Source of the DNA: a virus
Strand: one strand, 5' to 3'
Length of the DNA: 40,525 bases
Virus record (IMG/VR): IMGVR_UViG_3300024520_000183
Location: 1 to 40,525 of that record
Of this stretch, positions 1-40,525 are shown piece after piece. Below the pieces are notes generated by a model that saw nothing but the letters and a program-made list of their open reading frames with translations, had not been told where the DNA came from and searched no databases. Every line of letters starts with the position of its first letter. The stretch's first letter is position 1. The translations under genes and the position numbers were made by a program.

Positions 1-253
1 CGGTCTAGGTTACGGTTACGGTGACGGTTACGGTCACGGTGACGGTGAAGGTTACGGTTACGGTCTCGGTCTCGGTGACGGTGACGGTTACGGTGACGGT
101 GACGGTGACGGTTACGGTTACGGTCACGGTCACGGTCACGGTGACGGTGAAGGTTACGGTTACGGTCTCGGTCTCGGTCACGGTGACGGTGAAGGTTACG
201 GTTACGGTCTCGGTCTCGGTGACGGTGACGGTAAAGGTTACGGTTACGGTGGT
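1..253. repeat. Left part of a (GGTNNN)n hexanucleotide tract
   Basis: About 41 consecutive six-base units, all GGT plus one of TAC, GAC, CAC, GAA, CTC, AAA (one CTA at the very start). Most units contain the interrupted palindrome GTNAC. There is higher-order structure: units 134-175 and 176-217 are an exact 42-bp tandem copy, and 20-121 is identical to 40342-40443 at the other end of the window. The period is six, so copy-number changes never shift a reading frame, and all frames stay open. It lies directly upstream of the gene at 310. Whether its role is as DNA or as protein is not shown. Confidence 0.95.
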
Positions 254-256
254 TAA
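2..256 (+). CDS. 3' part of a possible Gly-X repeat protein (partial)
   Basis: One frame through the tract reads Gly-X-Gly-X with X = Tyr, Asp, His, Glu, Leu or Lys and ends Gly-Gly-TAA at 254-256, exactly where the repeat stops. The matching frame at the right end starts at ATG 40336, two codons before the repeat. Joined through the terminal overlap, this would give a protein of about 120 residues, Met-Arg-(Gly-X)58-Gly-Gly. Every Gly codon is GGT and no synonymous changes are seen, so coding is doubtful. No good ribosome site precedes ATG 40336. Confidence 0.3.
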   Translation, partial: GLGYGYGDGYGHGDGEGYGYGLGLGDGDGYGDGDGDGYGYGHGHGHGDGEGYGYGLGLGHGDGEGYGYGLGLGDGDGKGYGYGG

Positions 257-309: not shown

Positions 310-552
310 ATGTCAGATAAAAAATACGATAATACTAATAGAGGAGCTGTTTGGAAAAACAGTGACAAGAAATCAGAAACGCATCCCGACTTCAAAGGGA
401 ACCTAAACGTAGATGGAGTGGAATACTTCCTAGACTTCTGGGCAAATGATCCAGAAGGCCGCCGTCCCGACTTCTCTGTGCAAGTGAAGAAGAAGGATAA
501 GCAGCCAGGTGGATATACGCCAGCAGTCGATGATGGTTCGGCTCCATTCTAA
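310..552 (+). CDS. Small phage protein with an SSB-like acidic C-terminus
   Basis: This 80-residue protein starts at an ATG behind AAGGA. I cannot assign a known family with certainty. Its N-terminal half (NRGAVWKN, HPDFKGNLNVDG, EYFLDFWAND) resembles small phage proteins found beside recombination genes. It ends DDGSAPF, which recalls the acidic Asp-Asp-x-Pro-Phe tip that bacterial SSB uses to recruit partners. With the Erf-type protein upstream (across the contig ends) and the exonuclease directly downstream, a role in handling single-stranded DNA is a reasonable inference, but no OB fold can be shown by eye. Confidence 0.75.
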   Translation: MSDKKYDNTNRGAVWKNSDKKSETHPDFKGNLNVDGVEYFLDFWANDPEGRRPDFSVQVKKKDKQPGGYTPAVDDGSAPF

Positions 553-580: not shown

Positions 581-1384
581 ATGTCACACTATTACACACA
601 AGACGGAACCCCTCGCTATACTGTCCCTAAAAAGGACGGTAGCGGGGAACGTTCCACTACTATCGCGGATGCACGAAAACTAAAGCTTCTGCCATCCGTT
701 ACAACAGTTCTACAAGTCCTAGCTAAGCCAGGTCTAGATAGATGGAAGCTTATGCAGGTTGCAGATGCTTGTTATGATGATAAGATAACTAGCACAGAAT
801 GGGAGCTTGAGGATTATTCCCGCGAAATGATTAAGCGAGCTTTTGAGCAAGTGGATGATGCTGCTGATCTCGGAACGCTTATACATAAAGCACTTGAATG
901 TTACTTCCAGCGGGTCGATTTCAATTCATTGGAAACAGTGGTAATTGGAGATAAGACCGTAGGGCTACATGAAATATGCACAGATGTCGAGGTATGGACG
1001 GAGGATAACCTTGTAAGTATCACAGAATCAGAGCTTTGCTTAGTAGATGGTAAGCATGGTTTTGCTGGCCTCACTGATTGCGTTATATTGAAGGAGGGCA
1101 AACACGGCATTCTCGACTTCAAGACAAGAAAGTTTGACCAAATCAAGGGTCTGAAGCCGTATGACGAGCATCCTGTCCAAATTGCTGCTTACCACATGGC
1201 TAAGTATGGACAAATCACAGATGATGCCATAGGGTGCAATTTATATATAAGCTCAACAGTAGCGGGACTCATACATGGAATATGGTATGATGCTCCCAAG
1301 CTACGTGAGAGTTGGGAGATATTTAAAGCAGCTCTTACAATATGGAAGATTCAGAAGAACTATCAAAGCGGGACAGTATCATGA
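581..1384 (+). CDS. PD-(D/E)XK (RecB/Cas4-like) exonuclease
   Basis: A 267-residue protein with the order expected of phage RecB-like nucleases: PSVTTVLQVLAKPGLDRWK near residue 40, GTLIHKALE near 100, then the catalytic region with Asp in GFAGLTDCV and the DxK motif in ILDFKTRKF (about 155-185), followed by the QIAAYH helix near 206. Such enzymes resect double-strand ends and usually act with an annealing protein; here the Erf homologue lies a few genes upstream through the contig ends. ATG 581 follows AAAGAGAG. The stop overlaps the next start as ATGA, suggesting coupled translation. Confidence 0.85.
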   Translation: MSHYYTQDGTPRYTVPKKDGSGERSTTIADARKLKLLPSVTTVLQVLAKPGLDRWKLMQVADACYDDKITSTEWELEDYSREMIKRAFEQVDDAADLGTLIHKALECYFQRVDFNSLETVVIGDKTVGLHEICTDVEVWTEDNLVSITESELCLVDGKHGFAGLTDCVILKEGKHGILDFKTRKFDQIKGLKPYDEHPVQIAAYHMAKYGQITDDAIGCNLYISSTVAGLIHGIWYDAPKLRESWEIFKAALTIWKIQKNYQSGTVS

Positions 1385-1614
1385 CGCACGAAAAGGCACA
1401 ACTAGAGGGGCTAGTGGGAATACTATGGGAATTAGGGGGTAGACATCTACATGAAAGCGGTCAGCGATACCGTAGATCCACTGATAATGAGTCTGTAGCC
1501 TTCTGGCTCCCTGAAGATATGATAAAAAACGACATTAAACGGCTGGCTGACTCCAATAATATCCAAACGAGGAGAAACAGCATAGGGGGGCAAGTAAATG
1601 ATAATGGCAAGTGA
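1381..1614 (+). CDS. Hypothetical protein, 77 aa
   Basis: I chose the internal ATG at 1381 because it forms an ATGA overlap with the exonuclease stop (1382-1384); the longer frame from 1342 would run 43 bases into that gene. The product is short and charged, with an AFWLPEDMI segment. The 3' end overlaps the helicase start by 17 bases. I do not recognise a family. Its place between exonuclease and helicase genes suggests a replication accessory role, which is inference only. Confidence 0.7.
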   Translation: MTHEKAQLEGLVGILWELGGRHLHESGQRYRRSTDNESVAFWLPEDMIKNDIKRLADSNNIQTRRNSIGGQVNDNGK

Positions 1615-2857
1615 GAATATACAGCAAGTAACCAGAAAAGACATTGAGCACCAGCTACTAGCTTGTATCTTGCATGACCCTGAGCGTAACGTCATCAATG
1701 ACTGCGTATCAGGGGGCATCGAGTCGAGTATGTTCGATGGGGCAAGTCTACGAGTGTGGGATGCTATGATAGAGCTATGGAATGACGATGAGGAAATTGA
1801 CACTGCCACTGTAGGTATTAAGTCAGGATTGTCATTCATAGACATAATAGACATCGAGAATGTTCGGGATGGATGCGTAGGCCATAAAATGTTCATTGAT
1901 GAACTACTCAAATGGGACACTCGACACCGCTTAGACAGGATTAGCATGTATATCCAAGACAATGCTAGTAGTGATCCAGATGATACCGTCTGCCAAGTGC
2001 TGAGAATGGCTGAGGATCGCCCTGTAGTGAAGGTGGAGGAAAACTCCGCTGGTGTTATATGCAAAGGCTTCGTAGAGCGTATAAGAGCCTTAGAGAAAGA
2101 AGGGGCAAGTATAACGACCAACTTACCCTCCTTAAATCATCTTATGCCTATAAGGAACGGGCAGCTATTAACCCTAGCTGCTCGTCCTGGCTTCGGTAAA
2201 ACTGCTTTAGCATGTCAGTTGGCCTTTTATTCTGCTGTAGTTCAAAATAAGTCTGTGGCATTCTTCTCTATGGAGATGTCTAGGGATGAGCTGATGATGC
2301 GAGGGCTATCTATGATGAGCGAAACCTCAGGAGGGCTGATTAAGGAGGGCATACCTAGCCCCCAAACGGATGCCAAGGTAAATGATGCACTAAACAGGAT
2401 TGCTGCCTCGGACATACACTTATATGATAACGCCAGCTTAACAACTGACAGGATCTCATCTATATGTAAAAAGCTAAAATCAAAGGGAGGGTTAGACTTC
2501 GTTGTAGTGGATTATTTGCAGCTTATCACCCCTTCTGACAAGAAGGCTAATAGAGAGCAGCAAGTGGGGGGCATAGCTAGGGATTTAAAGAAACTCGCTA
2601 TGAACTTACGCATTCCAGTATTAGCATTATCGCAGCTTAACCGCGATGTAGTCAAAACCAACCGTAAGCCAAACCTATCAGACCTTAGAGAGTCAGGCAG
2701 CATTGAGCAGGACAGTGACATTGTTATGTTCATTCACCCTATCGACCCTAATGCTAATGATGATTGCGAGATTATCGTTGAAAAGCACCGCAATGGTTCT
2801 ATAGGTTCAATTACTACCGAGTTTATGAAGGCTCGTAGCTACTTTAAACAGAAGTGA
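1598..2857 (+). CDS. dnaB: Replicative DNA helicase, DnaB type
   Basis: A 419-residue DnaB-family helicase. The N-terminal all-helical domain starts DIEHQLLACILHDP. The RecA-like motor has a Walker A loop, AARPGFGKTALA (about residues 194-205), a FFSMEM strand, Walker B FVVVDYLQLI (about 300-309), ALSQLNR and the RESGSIEQDSDIVMFI segment. It would unwind DNA ahead of the fork as a hexameric ring. No DnaG primase, loader or DNA polymerase is visible in this window, so host proteins probably do the rest. A second Met two codons in is an alternative start. Confidence 0.95.
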   Translation: MIMASENIQQVTRKDIEHQLLACILHDPERNVINDCVSGGIESSMFDGASLRVWDAMIELWNDDEEIDTATVGIKSGLSFIDIIDIENVRDGCVGHKMFIDELLKWDTRHRLDRISMYIQDNASSDPDDTVCQVLRMAEDRPVVKVEENSAGVICKGFVERIRALEKEGASITTNLPSLNHLMPIRNGQLLTLAARPGFGKTALACQLAFYSAVVQNKSVAFFSMEMSRDELMMRGLSMMSETSGGLIKEGIPSPQTDAKVNDALNRIAASDIHLYDNASLTTDRISSICKKLKSKGGLDFVVVDYLQLITPSDKKANREQQVGGIARDLKKLAMNLRIPVLALSQLNRDVVKTNRKPNLSDLRESGSIEQDSDIVMFIHPIDPNANDDCEIIVEKHRNGSIGSITTEFMKARSYFKQK

Positions 2858-29515: not shown

Positions 29516-29770
29516 TTATTGTCCTAGTAAAGTTGATACTTTTCTGTAATTGGAGTTTGCTCGCGCTCTGCGAGAGGCGGCTGGTGTTGCCGTTAAAGAT
29601 TTGCCTGCCATAGGCTTAGATTCTTCCTTGCCAGAAATGGCACGGGATAAATTCCTTACGGGACGAGGAGCGTCATTAGAAGCGGAGGAACCACCGTTGA
29701 TCTGATTAACGAGATTTGCTACGGCTGGACTTTGAGCCTTTGCTGAAGATTTCTTTTGGCCTGATCCCAT
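29516..29770 (-). CDS. TLLGQ-family small protein, copy 2
   Basis: An 84-residue basic protein (GKSLTATPAASRRARANS, ending STLLGQ). It shares the start MGS, a middle NLSRAISGKEESKPMAGKSL and the ending with the copy upstream. Its 3' end sits in a 21-base direct repeat (TATTGTCCTAGTAAAGTTGAT, forward strand) also found at the end of the next copy, pointing to recent tandem duplication. Confidence 0.7.
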   Translation of the reverse strand: MGSGQKKSSAKAQSPAVANLVNQINGGSSASNDAPRPVRNLSRAISGKEESKPMAGKSLTATPAASRRARANSNYRKVSTLLGQ

Positions 29771-29771
29771 C

Positions 29772-30023
29772 TTATTGTCCTAGTAAAGTTGATTTTTTGG
29801 GCTGATTAGAGAGTATTCGAGCTCTACGAGAGGCAACGGGTGCTGCGGTCAGAGATTTGCCTGCAACAGGCTTCGCTTCTTCCTTATTGGAAACTGCGCG
29901 AGCTAAATTGCGTCTAGGGTCGGGAGCATTGTTGACGGTAGTAGAGCCGCCTTTTTTACCAAGAGCCTTCTGTATCGCTAGGTTATGGGCGGGAATTAAA
30001 AATTTCTTCGGATCTGATCCCAT
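29772..30023 (-). CDS. TLLGQ-family small protein, copy 3
   Basis: An 83-residue basic protein closely related to copy 2 (NLARAVSNKEEAKPVAGKSL, APVASRRARILSNQ, ending STLLGQ). One base separates it from copy 2. Its start lies 41 bases inside the upstream gene. The divergent first 25 residues and conserved C-terminal half suggest that the C-terminal part carries the shared function. Confidence 0.7.
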   Translation of the reverse strand: MGSDPKKFLIPAHNLAIQKALGKKGGSTTVNNAPDPRRNLARAVSNKEEAKPVAGKSLTAAPVASRRARILSNQPKKSTLLGQ

Positions 30024-36223: not shown

Positions 36224-36661
36224 ATGAATATGAATAAGATACTAATAACCCTTATGCTCTTAACAAATGCAGCGCATTGCTACACAGCTGAGGAGATTGT
36301 GACATTAACTATACTAGGAGAAAGCAGATGCCAACAAGAGGAGGGAATGAGGGCAGTCGGGCAAGTGCTTTTGAATCGAAGCAGAGCGAATAATATCCCT
36401 GTAGATGCCGTTTGTTTAAAGACTAGGCAATTCTCCTGCTGGAATAATAAAAAGGCCATGTTGAGACGCTCAGAGGCTGTTATGGCTGAATTTGAGTCAA
36501 AGACTAGGCTAGCTCAGAGCATTGCAGCATTTATATGTAACAATATGGATGTCCATGAGACTAGGGCAAACCACTATTGGGCGCATAACCTATGCGACCC
36601 GTATTGGGCGAAAGGAAAAGCTGGTGTCATCATAGGAGATCATACATTCATACAACTATAA
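36224..36661 (+). CDS. SleB-type cell wall hydrolase (endolysin)
   Basis: In 145 residues: a signal peptide (KILITLMLLTNAAHCYT) and one SleB/CwlJ hydrolase domain with LTILGESRCQQEEGMRAVGQ (catalytic Glu), VLLNRSRANN, FSCWN and the closing HYWAHNLCDPYWAK and IGDHTFIQL. Export by the host Sec system means lysis timing may depend on a pinholin or membrane release. A second ATG two codons in is an alternative start. Confidence 0.85.
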   Translation: MNMNKILITLMLLTNAAHCYTAEEIVTLTILGESRCQQEEGMRAVGQVLLNRSRANNIPVDAVCLKTRQFSCWNNKKAMLRRSEAVMAEFESKTRLAQSIAAFICNNMDVHETRANHYWAHNLCDPYWAKGKAGVIIGDHTFIQL

Positions 36662-36699
36662 TAATAACAACTATAATAATAACAACTATAATAATAAGG
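36653..36699 (+). repeat. Three tandem copies of a 15-base unit with TATAAT
   Basis: CAACTATAATAATAA is present three times back to back, from the last codons of the endolysin gene to the ribosome site of the next. Each copy contains TATAAT, the -10 consensus. No matching -35 is clear, so it may be a spacer grown by slippage. Confidence 0.8.
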
Positions 36700-36707
36700 A
36701 GAAAACA

Positions 36708-37280
36708 ATGAAACCAATCACAACAACACTGAATGAAATAAGAAGTCACGAACCTTGCTCTGATGGGTGGGAGAAACTATTGAAATCCCTAGGCAAAACT
36801 AAAGCGGACGATGAGCCACTTGAGTTAGTTACCATACTTGAAAGCAACGACATAGCGGATGCGGTATGGTGCTTGGGGTGTCTTAGTGAAGACCATGAAT
36901 ACCTTGTGCGCCTGTTCGCCTGTGCATGCGCGGAAAGCGTTCTACATTTATATGAGAATGAATACCCTGAAGACTTTCGAGTGCGCAATTGCATTGAAAC
37001 TTCTAAAAAATATGCACTTGGGTTGTATGACGATGCTACTTGGGCTACTACATTGACTGCTGCTGGGGCTATTACATTGACTGCTGCTGGGGCTGCTGCT
37101 TGGGCTACTACTAGGGCTGCTGCTGGGACTGCTGCTTGGGCTACTGCTAGGGCTGCTGCTGGGGCTGTTTGTGATGCTACTGTTAGGGATGCTGAAGAGG
37201 AAAAGCAAACCGTATTCTTCAAGGAATACTTCGGATCGCCTAAAACTATAGAGGAATATAAAACACTATTAACTAAATAA
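36708..37280 (+). CDS. Imm5-like protein with Ala/Trp repeats
   Basis: A 190-residue protein starting at ATG 36708 behind AAGGAG. The helical N-terminal part (ADAVWCLGCLSEDHEYLVRL, FACACAESVLHLYENEYPED) leads into a low-complexity helix of AAWATTRAAAGTAAWATARA repeats, then an acidic end. This resembles phage proteins called putative Imm5-like immunity proteins. The true function is unknown. The repeat DNA is GCT-rich and may vary in length by multiples of three. Confidence 0.65.
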   Translation: MKPITTTLNEIRSHEPCSDGWEKLLKSLGKTKADDEPLELVTILESNDIADAVWCLGCLSEDHEYLVRLFACACAESVLHLYENEYPEDFRVRNCIETSKKYALGLYDDATWATTLTAAGAITLTAAGAAAWATTRAAAGTAAWATARAAAGAVCDATVRDAEEEKQTVFFKEYFGSPKTIEEYKTLLTK

Positions 37281-39130: not shown

Positions 39131-39333
39131 GCGAGAATATTAAGTATATCAAAGCAGCAAGGGAGCTTTATAAAGTAAAGGGCTTCCCTTTCACTAACAG
39201 GGATGGAGAAGCAGTTGATTTTGTTAAAGCTGCTTACGATAGACTATCACCTGAAGAAAAACAAGAATGCGATGAGTGGAATAGAGCTGAAATGCTCGCT
39301 GCTCAAGATGCACATAATAAGGAACAATCATGA
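39127..39333 (+). CDS. Hypothetical protein, 68 aa
   Basis: Start at ATG 39127, in ATGA overlap with the membrane protein stop; the longer frame from 38995 is a shadow of that gene. Helical and charged (IKYIKAARELYKVKGFPFTN, LSPEEKQECDEWNRAEML). The end overlaps the next start by an ATGA. No family recognised. Confidence 0.65.
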   Translation: MSENIKYIKAARELYKVKGFPFTNRDGEAVDFVKAAYDRLSPEEKQECDEWNRAEMLAAQDAHNKEQS

Positions 39334-39932
39334 AGGAACTAATGTTAATACAATCGGAGCTAAAGGCTCCAAAGTCGCAGACTAATAAGTTTGGTGGCTA
39401 TCAATATAGAAGTTGTGAAGATATACTGGAGGCGGTTAAGCCATTGTTGGCTAAACATGAATGCGTCCTCACTATATCAGACGAGATTAAAGAGGCGGGG
39501 AATCTAACCTATGTAGAGGCAACCGCGTCAATTCGCCCATCAGCGGATTCAGCACCAGTAGTATCCGTAACTGCTCAGGCTGGCATAGACCCTAACCGCA
39601 AAGGAATGGACATAGCTCAGAGTTTCGGCAGTTCAAGCAGTTATGCACGTAAATACGCTTTAAACGGCCTGTTCTGCATAGATGATACCAAGGATGCCGA
39701 TGCGACTAATACGCACGATAAGACCCCTTCAAAGCCCGCTAAGAAGGCAGCTAAGAAGCCTGAGCCTATCACAGACGATCAGAAGATGGAAATTGCAGCC
39801 CTAATGCTGGAACTAAGTATTACAGATGCTCAGTTTGAGAAAACTATGGGAGCTAAAATACTAAATCTATCAGACTTCGCAGCTCATGAAGCTATCGAAC
39901 GACTCACTAAACTAAAAAACAAAAAAGGATAA
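39330..39932 (+). CDS. erf: Erf-family single-strand annealing protein
   Basis: In 200 residues it has the ERF signature: IQSELKAPKSQTNKFGGYQY, RSCEDILEAVKPLLAKHECV, the core GMDIAQSFGSSSSYARKYAL and NGLFCIDDTKDAD, then a basic linker (KPAKKAAKKPEP) and a helical C-terminal domain. It anneals complementary single strands during recombination and concatemer or circle formation. The partner exonuclease is encoded at 581-1384. Confidence 0.9.
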   Translation: MKELMLIQSELKAPKSQTNKFGGYQYRSCEDILEAVKPLLAKHECVLTISDEIKEAGNLTYVEATASIRPSADSAPVVSVTAQAGIDPNRKGMDIAQSFGSSSSYARKYALNGLFCIDDTKDADATNTHDKTPSKPAKKAAKKPEPITDDQKMEIAALMLELSITDAQFEKTMGAKILNLSDFAAHEAIERLTKLKNKKG

Positions 39933-39934
39933 CA

Positions 39935-40312
39935 ATGACACAGATCAACCATGAAACATTAGAGCTAAACGGGGTTAAATACATCCGAGAAGATTCTATA
40001 AATGATAACGCACCTGCTAAGGATTTAGATGGTAAACCCTATGTAGTCATCAGAAGCCGAGACTCAGGATGCCATGCAGGTTACTTAGAGTCAGAGGAGG
40101 GGAATGCTGTCGTGCTCCTAAACTCACGCAGATTATACCAGTGGAAAGGCGCAGCAACACTTAGCCAACTAGCAATGGAAGGCGTTGATCAAAAAGGCAG
40201 TAAATTCCCTATGGAAGTAATTCGGATCACTATATATGATATATGTGAAAAGATCGACACCACTGAGAAAGCCCGCCAAAGCATTCAGGGGGTTCCTGTA
40301 TGGAGTGTGTAG
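39935..40312 (+). CDS. DUF6948 protein
   Basis: In 125 residues it has the pattern of this phage family: KPYVVIRSRDSGCHAGYLES, GNAVVLLNSRRLYQWKGAAT, LSQLAMEGVDQKGSKFPMEV and the ending SIQGVPVWSV. The function is unknown, but members are common next to recombination genes. The start follows AAAAAAGGATAACA. The hexamer tract begins 29 bases after the stop. Confidence 0.8.
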   Translation: MTQINHETLELNGVKYIREDSINDNAPAKDLDGKPYVVIRSRDSGCHAGYLESEEGNAVVLLNSRRLYQWKGAATLSQLAMEGVDQKGSKFPMEVIRITIYDICEKIDTTEKARQSIQGVPVWSV

Positions 40313-40335
40313 CTATTAAACCAACACTGTATTAC

Positions 40336-40525
40336 ATGCGCGGTGACGGTTACGGTCACGGTGACGGTGAAGGTTACGGTTACGGTCTCGGTCTCGGTGA
40401 CGGTGACGGTTACGGTGACGGTGACGGTGACGGTTACGGTTACGGTAAAGGTTACGGTTACGGTGACGGTTACGGTCACGGTGACGGTGAAGGTTACGGT
40501 TACGGTCTCGGTCTCGGTGACGGTG
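40336..40525 (+). CDS. 5' part of a possible Gly-X repeat protein (partial)
   Basis: ATG 40336 then Arg and Gly-X pairs to the window end (X = Asp, Tyr, His, Glu, Leu, Lys). It matches the frame that ends at 256 on the left. No ribosome site is visible, and all Gly codons are GGT, so this may be a by-product of the repeat rather than a gene. Confidence 0.3.
   Translation, partial: MRGDGYGHGDGEGYGYGLGLGDGDGYGDGDGDGYGYGKGYGYGDGYGHGDGEGYGYGLGLGDG
40342..40525. repeat. Right part of the (GGTNNN)n tract
   Basis: About 31 six-base units of the same kind as at the left end. The pattern has a 120-base higher-order period: 40342-40443 equals 20-121 exactly, and the next copy starts at 40462. The last 77 bases (40449-40525) are identical to 7-83. 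Confidence 0.95.
40449..40525. repeat. 77-base terminal direct repeat (with 7-83)
   Basis: Exact identity of the two contig ends over 77 bases. Just outside it the sequences differ by two bases (CGGTAAAGG at right, CGGTCTAGG at left). The likely cause is an assembly overlap in a repeat of a circular or terminally redundant genome; a true short terminal repeat is the alternative. Confidence 0.85.

Follow-up and report, generated by a model that had tools for sequence, protein, structure and literature searches.

DUF6948 and a Gly-X repeat gene form a conserved two-gene cassette in many unrelated phages

The window (the whole 40,525-nucleotide stretch of viral DNA that was analysed, IMG/VR record IMGVR_UViG_3300024520_000183) carries an operon in the order Erf-DUF6948-GX-SSB-exonuclease-DnaB, running through the ends of the record (Table 1). 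The replication-operon setting had been proposed in a preliminary description of this DNA and is borne out by profile matches to its genes. The DUF6948 protein scores 89 bits against PF22253, for which the Pfam gathering cut-off is 27. After it comes a tract of GGTNNN hexamers, which extends from 40342 to 40525 and then from 2 to 250, that is, over the 184 bases that end the record and the 250 that begin it. These coordinates confirm the earlier report of a tract at both contig ends, a position that is an assembly break. No further match to (GGTNAC)3 occurred when the whole window was scanned.

Table 1. Genes and features of the operon that spans the ends of the window
Feature	Position	Strand	Support
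Erf-like single-strand annealing protein, operon start	39330..39932	+	PF04404 E 2e-40, phrog_155 E 5e-44
DUF6948 gene, 125 aa, cassette gene 1, predicted Sm/LSm-like fold	39935..40312	+	PF22253 E 3e-25
Gly-X gene, 5' part: ATG 40300, leader MECVAIKPTLYYMR, GGT-NNN units from 40342	40300..40525	+	
Imperfect 83-bp terminal overlap with 1-83	40443..40525	+	81/83 identical
Gly-X gene, 3' part: frame from base 2, stop TAA 254-256, bases 1-6 doubtful	1..256	+	
SSB-like protein, next in operon	310..552	+	phrog_18154 E 1e-12
PD-(D/E)XK-type exonuclease	581..1384	+	phrog_298 E 1.6e-18
DnaB-like replicative helicase	1598..2857	+	PF03796 E 5e-70

A direct end-to-end join of the record was rejected, as it is one base out of frame, and the 83-bp overlap was used instead. 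This is the sole suffix/prefix overlap, and only prefix positions 5 and 6 are mismatched. When it is collapsed, the ends join in frame into a circle, with an open reading frame of 132 aa and 59 six-base units, 58 of them Gly-X and the last Gly-Gly. The Gly-X frame with its own start and stop, and the count of about 58 units, were thus rightly described, with the reservation that the true length is uncertain because both record ends fall inside the repeat. Three levels of order had also been claimed. TRF returns periods of 6 and 42, and an exact 106-bp repeat (19-124 is identical to 40341-40446) corresponds, in the merged sequence, to a period of 120 bp.

The interrupted palindrome GTNAC, previously said to lie in most units, is present as GGTNAC in 44 of the 59 units of the merged tract. 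It arises because GGT followed by a Tyr, Asp or His codon ending in AC spells GTNAC. The X residues in the window are Tyr (20), Asp (18), Leu (9), His (6), Glu (4) and Lys (1); Ser is absent, unlike in most relatives. The claim that no synonymous changes occur holds for nearly all units and fails at a single place, CTA versus CTC at positions 5-7, within the doubtful first bases of the record. If the codons were drawn from the usage of the neighboring genes, the probability of such uniformity would be about 10^-58.

Gly-X genes and DUF6948 genes are tightly associated across phages. A forward search of IMG/VR used a Gly-X pattern blind to the silent bases together with the window's own GGTNAC pattern, and gave 116 Gly-X loci with a same-strand upstream neighbor. 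Among the matches listed, an iterated HMM search found a DUF6948 homologue immediately upstream in 93 of these loci, 23 had no recognizable DUF6948 there, and only 1 downstream neighbor, used as the control, matched DUF6948. For the reverse search, loci (at least 80) were fetched from IMG/VR by a DUF6948 protein motif alone. A script placed a Gly-X ORF downstream in 77 of 80 among the matches listed, a figure that rose to 79 when two loci (L444 and L503) were read by eye; L477 was the one without Gly-X. About 14 of the 80 reverse-set contigs were already present in the forward set. GPGT-type matches in the reverse test proved to be the +1 reading of GGG-NNC Gly-X tracts and were set aside. In the window, too, the Gly-X ORF lies directly downstream of DUF6948 on the same strand. 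The preliminary description had suggested looking for the same tract in related phages, and the reciprocal searches find Gly-X beside DUF6948 in most of them.

The pair is commoner than the 116- and 80-locus counts. Among cultured or annotated phages it occurs in Chlorobiaceae phage CV-1-33 (genes 26/25), Pectobacterium phages of the Ymer genus, Sabo and six relatives, Iodobacter phage PhiPLPE, Vibrio phage IKEMa6-1 and Dickeya phage Setonix. It is also carried by gonococcal prophages (L514 and L526), unannotated in their PLSDB copies, and the gonococcal DUF6948 protein has three matching places per genome. The neighbors of the pair include RecT, YqaJ, AAA_24, DnaB and DNA methylases. DUF6948 followed by (Gly-X)n is therefore a conserved two-gene cassette in very many unrelated phages. 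The module is apparently undescribed: in the open-licence literature there was no relevant description of the pair, of DUF6948 or of phage glycine repeats, and one elsewhere is possible.

Three narrower comparisons gave nothing. A pattern search with the window's own DUF6948 as a single protein returned no relatives, and no Gly-X tract occurred in the stretches fetched for Erf relatives (L121-L200). The annotation of Microcystis phage Mvi-Yong1342-1, the closest terminase match at 40% identity, names no such gene.

Gene structure within the cassette is also conserved. The Gly-X start codon in the window overlaps the DUF6948 stop by 13 nt (gtATGGagtgtgTAG), and among the matches listed exactly this overlap recurs in 47 of 67 measurable loci and 30 of 93 forward loci. 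The pattern is rTATGGnnnnnnTAR; its rTATGG part is shared by both genes and supplies the codon for the conserved C-terminal Trp in DUF6948. Such an overlap of start and stop suggests that translation of the two genes is coupled. The two are separate genes in the window; in one locus only (L226) DUF6948 and about 43 Gly-X units form a single ORF (E 8e-27). Some Gly-X proteins carry a further C-terminal domain, one of which matches DUF7666, while matches of Gly-X proteins to PF22807 (TrAA12) were judged to be low-complexity. Tandem Gly-X gene arrays were seen as well: three of them (L082, L085, L088) share a C-terminal domain, EAILEEMGIP...LELRRDV, and have no recognized DUF6948 upstream, and two others (L086, L059) share the leader M(T/A)EYFYPVG and a basic tail, STRTRRRS.

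Structure prediction offers a lead on the first gene. AlphaFold2 models of the window DUF6948 and of a second subfamily have pLDDT values of 92.9 and 89.5. All 50 listed PDB matches of the window model (Foldseek/VIA) are Sm, LSm or SmAP proteins, as are nearly all those of the second, which add 3by7, a metagenomic Sm/LSm-like protein. The match scores are modest (VIA Z 7.2, Foldseek E about 0.002-0.03), a level that can mean merely a shared small-barrel arrangement. A sequence-profile search against the PDB found no Sm protein, its best match being a ribosomal protein at E 0.08. Given the modest scores and the lack of profile support, we describe the two subfamilies as having a predicted Sm-like fold and do not assign them to the Sm family.

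The silent bases of the tract behave differently from the bases that determine X. Across 65 DUF6948-anchored tracts (1,609 units), entropy is 0.20/0.21 bits at the silent positions and 1.03/1.06 at bases one and two of the X codon. The opposite holds for bacterial Gly-Tyr tails collected by a similar pattern search, with 1.17/0.95 at silent positions and 0.43/0.24 at X. A single Gly codon makes up 95% of a tract on average, compared with 40% for the favorite Gly codon in the other ORFs of the same loci, and the tract codon is the locus favorite in 18 of 62 cases. The silent class varies by phage (GGC-NNC, GGC-NNT, GGT-NNC, GGG-NNC and others). Wherever a class is well sampled, Ser, Tyr and Asp account for most of X, in similar proportions, and the Ser codon shifts from TCC to TCT with the class. 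This constant makeup under different silent classes points to selection acting on the composition of the Gly-X protein.

The preliminary description favored a DNA-level role, and one may ask whether the hexamers are a DNA element (a binding array, origin, decoy or methylation target) in which the open frame is incidental. The frozen silent bases, the GTNAC palindromes and the position in a replication operon would all suit such an element. However, the bases that would form the motif of a binding array or origin repeat are not conserved between relatives: the silent class agrees at chance (0.25) for DUF6948 pairs 50-90% identical, and only pairs above 90% agree. The frozen bases follow neither local codon use nor DUF6948 relatedness, and this independence argues against a DNA or an RNA motif. 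Composition, in contrast, stays constant under different motifs. The DUF6948 partner with its fixed 13-nt overlap, the fusion, the C-terminal domains and the constant Ser/Tyr/Asp makeup together indicate that the hexamers belong to a gene and do not stand alone as a DNA array, as far as comparison of sequences can tell. We consider the DNA element very improbable. A role in recombination, also raised earlier, may be a by-product of the repeat.

An element acting in RNA was considered as well. The distal face of Hfq binds ARN repeats, and a GGx-NNy repeat in the mRNA could likewise be a binding site of the Sm-like DUF6948 protein and provide autoregulation. A predicted Sm-like fold beside a repeat of fixed and free letters is what this idea would expect. 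Given the chance-level agreement of silent classes, it is doubtful that DUF6948, or a factor inherited together with it, reads the silent bases as a motif, and we find the idea improbable.

Variation between close relatives occurs by whole units. In two pairs of near-identical contigs with flanks 99-100% identical (L442/L443 and L061/L091), all tract differences are whole six-base units, with no substitution. Between the Pectobacterium phages Ymer and Amona, the flanks show no difference (1,027 bp upstream, 700 bp downstream), yet it takes 12 unit edits to turn one tract into the other; the tracts have 32 and 29 units if a shorter last unit is included. Shuffled tracts gave a mean of 18.5 edits and a minimum of 12 in 300, so the observed value lies at the edge of the shuffle range. 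Over seven isolates, GGC is kept in 209 of 218 units and the final C in 210 of 218. In two gonococcal prophage copies the tract differences are mostly point changes, so not every tract turns over fast; fast turnover may need active phage replication. A rough simulation produced frozen silent bases and variable X only when unit duplication and deletion were about 1000 times as frequent as point mutation and X composition was under selection; without that selection X collapsed too. These comparisons support very fast turnover of whole hexamer units, with residue composition apparently kept by selection. Of the alternatives in the preliminary description, "very recent expansion" comes closest, in the form of recent, rapid unit turnover.

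The evidence for hypervariability rests on short-read assemblies, which handle repeats badly; the Ymer-genus genomes were assembled from Illumina reads with metaSPAdes (PMC11445585). Repeat length and order could in principle be products of assembly, as both contig ends of the window lie in the tract and 17 of 80 DUF6948-anchored loci, among the matches listed, also leave their contig inside it. We regard an artefact as extremely improbable, since many complete phage genomes, and circular gonococcal records that are also complete, contain the gene with both ends closed, and collapse alone cannot yield different orders of X.

We think it probable that the tract is the coding body of the Gly-X gene of a cassette, with fast unit turnover and a product that serves as an in-trans tail for the Sm-like DUF6948 protein. 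Slippage or unequal recombination would duplicate and delete hexamer units at a rate far above that of base mutation, and this turnover would homogenize the silent bases. Selection on the protein would keep the mix of a few X residues and be blind to their order. DUF6948 would be an Sm-like, probably ring-forming, nucleic-acid-binding protein. The Gly-X protein would be its flexible low-complexity tail, supplied separately, and may tune the binding or clustering of phage RNA or single-stranded DNA beside Erf/RecT-SSB recombination genes.

Alternatively, Gly-X could be a hypermutable gene selected for composition only and functionally unlinked to DUF6948 (a virion, anti-defence or host-binding protein, for example), the two being adjacent only through the operon and the hypervariability being adaptive in antagonistic coevolution. 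Order is indeed reshuffled between isolates with identical flanks, and some loci have tandem Gly-X arrays or lack DUF6948. Reciprocal linkage of about 80-97%, the overlapping start and the fusion instead suggest a functional pair, and we judge an unlinked gene unlikely. More tentatively than the in-trans tail itself, we raise the possibility of a widespread, undescribed system of two partners, an Sm-like protein and a Gly-X polymer encoded by its own gene, free of any fixed order and under constant reshuffling. Together they might, for example, scaffold phage nucleic acid in a condensate or filament; the sequence of the polymer would vary between near-identical phages and its chemistry would stay the same.

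The closest parallel worked out so far is Acinetobacter baumannii Hfq, which also joins an Sm-type core to a long glycine-aromatic low-complexity repeat. Its GGFGGQ repeats are required for Hfq to function normally; their redundancy is reported to matter for fitness, and changes to the C-terminal domain to alter RNA binding (PMC11617691). There, however, the tail is on the same polypeptide, as it is among the phages only in the L226 fusion, the unit is GGFGGQ and not Gly-X, the protein is a host protein, and hypervariability is not shown. The Hfq C-terminal region, again a low-complexity tail of an Sm-like ring, is reported to form an amyloid-like beta motif and can self-assemble (PMC10590398); its sequence is unlike Gly-X, for which self-assembly is putative. 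Eukaryotic and archaeal Sm and LSm proteins share the predicted fold of DUF6948 but have no detectable sequence similarity to it, and its ring and RNA binding are putative. Bacterial proteins with GYGYGY tails, which we take to resemble tyrosine-kinase (BY-kinase) proteins, alternate Gly and Tyr, but their silent codons are fully mixed, X is almost only Tyr, and they are cellular. Diversity-generating retroelements likewise vary the first two codon positions at otherwise fixed sites, whereas Gly-X varies by gain and loss of whole units; reverse transcriptase (PF00078) is absent from the record.

Two genes that very many phages carry, and whose products are labeled only as hypothetical in the records examined, can now be treated as one linked module, and the Sm-like prediction gives a structural clue to an uncharacterized domain. 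As a natural experiment, the Gly-X gene bears on low-complexity proteins: composition appears to be visible to selection, and order does not. The gene also shows cleanly that silent sites can be better conserved than replacement sites for a cause other than codon usage. Contigs of phages break here, so genomes that are circular risk being reported as linear. An order-free, reshuffling polymer module would be more interesting than a DNA array.

Other repeats occur in the window. A plus-strand gene at 36708-37280 (phrog_18326, with a weak Imm-5-like match, PF21805) has its own low-complexity AWATT/AAAGAAAWA repeat with a 24/36-bp period at 37034-37167; a link between this repeat gene family and Gly-X was dismissed, as the two are not co-located. 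Just before it, at 36652-36697, are three perfect copies of a 15-bp repeat, ACAACTATAATAATA. On the minus strand at 29516-30023, two adjacent short genes look like tandem paralogues, with SRRAR and STLLGQ near both C-termini.
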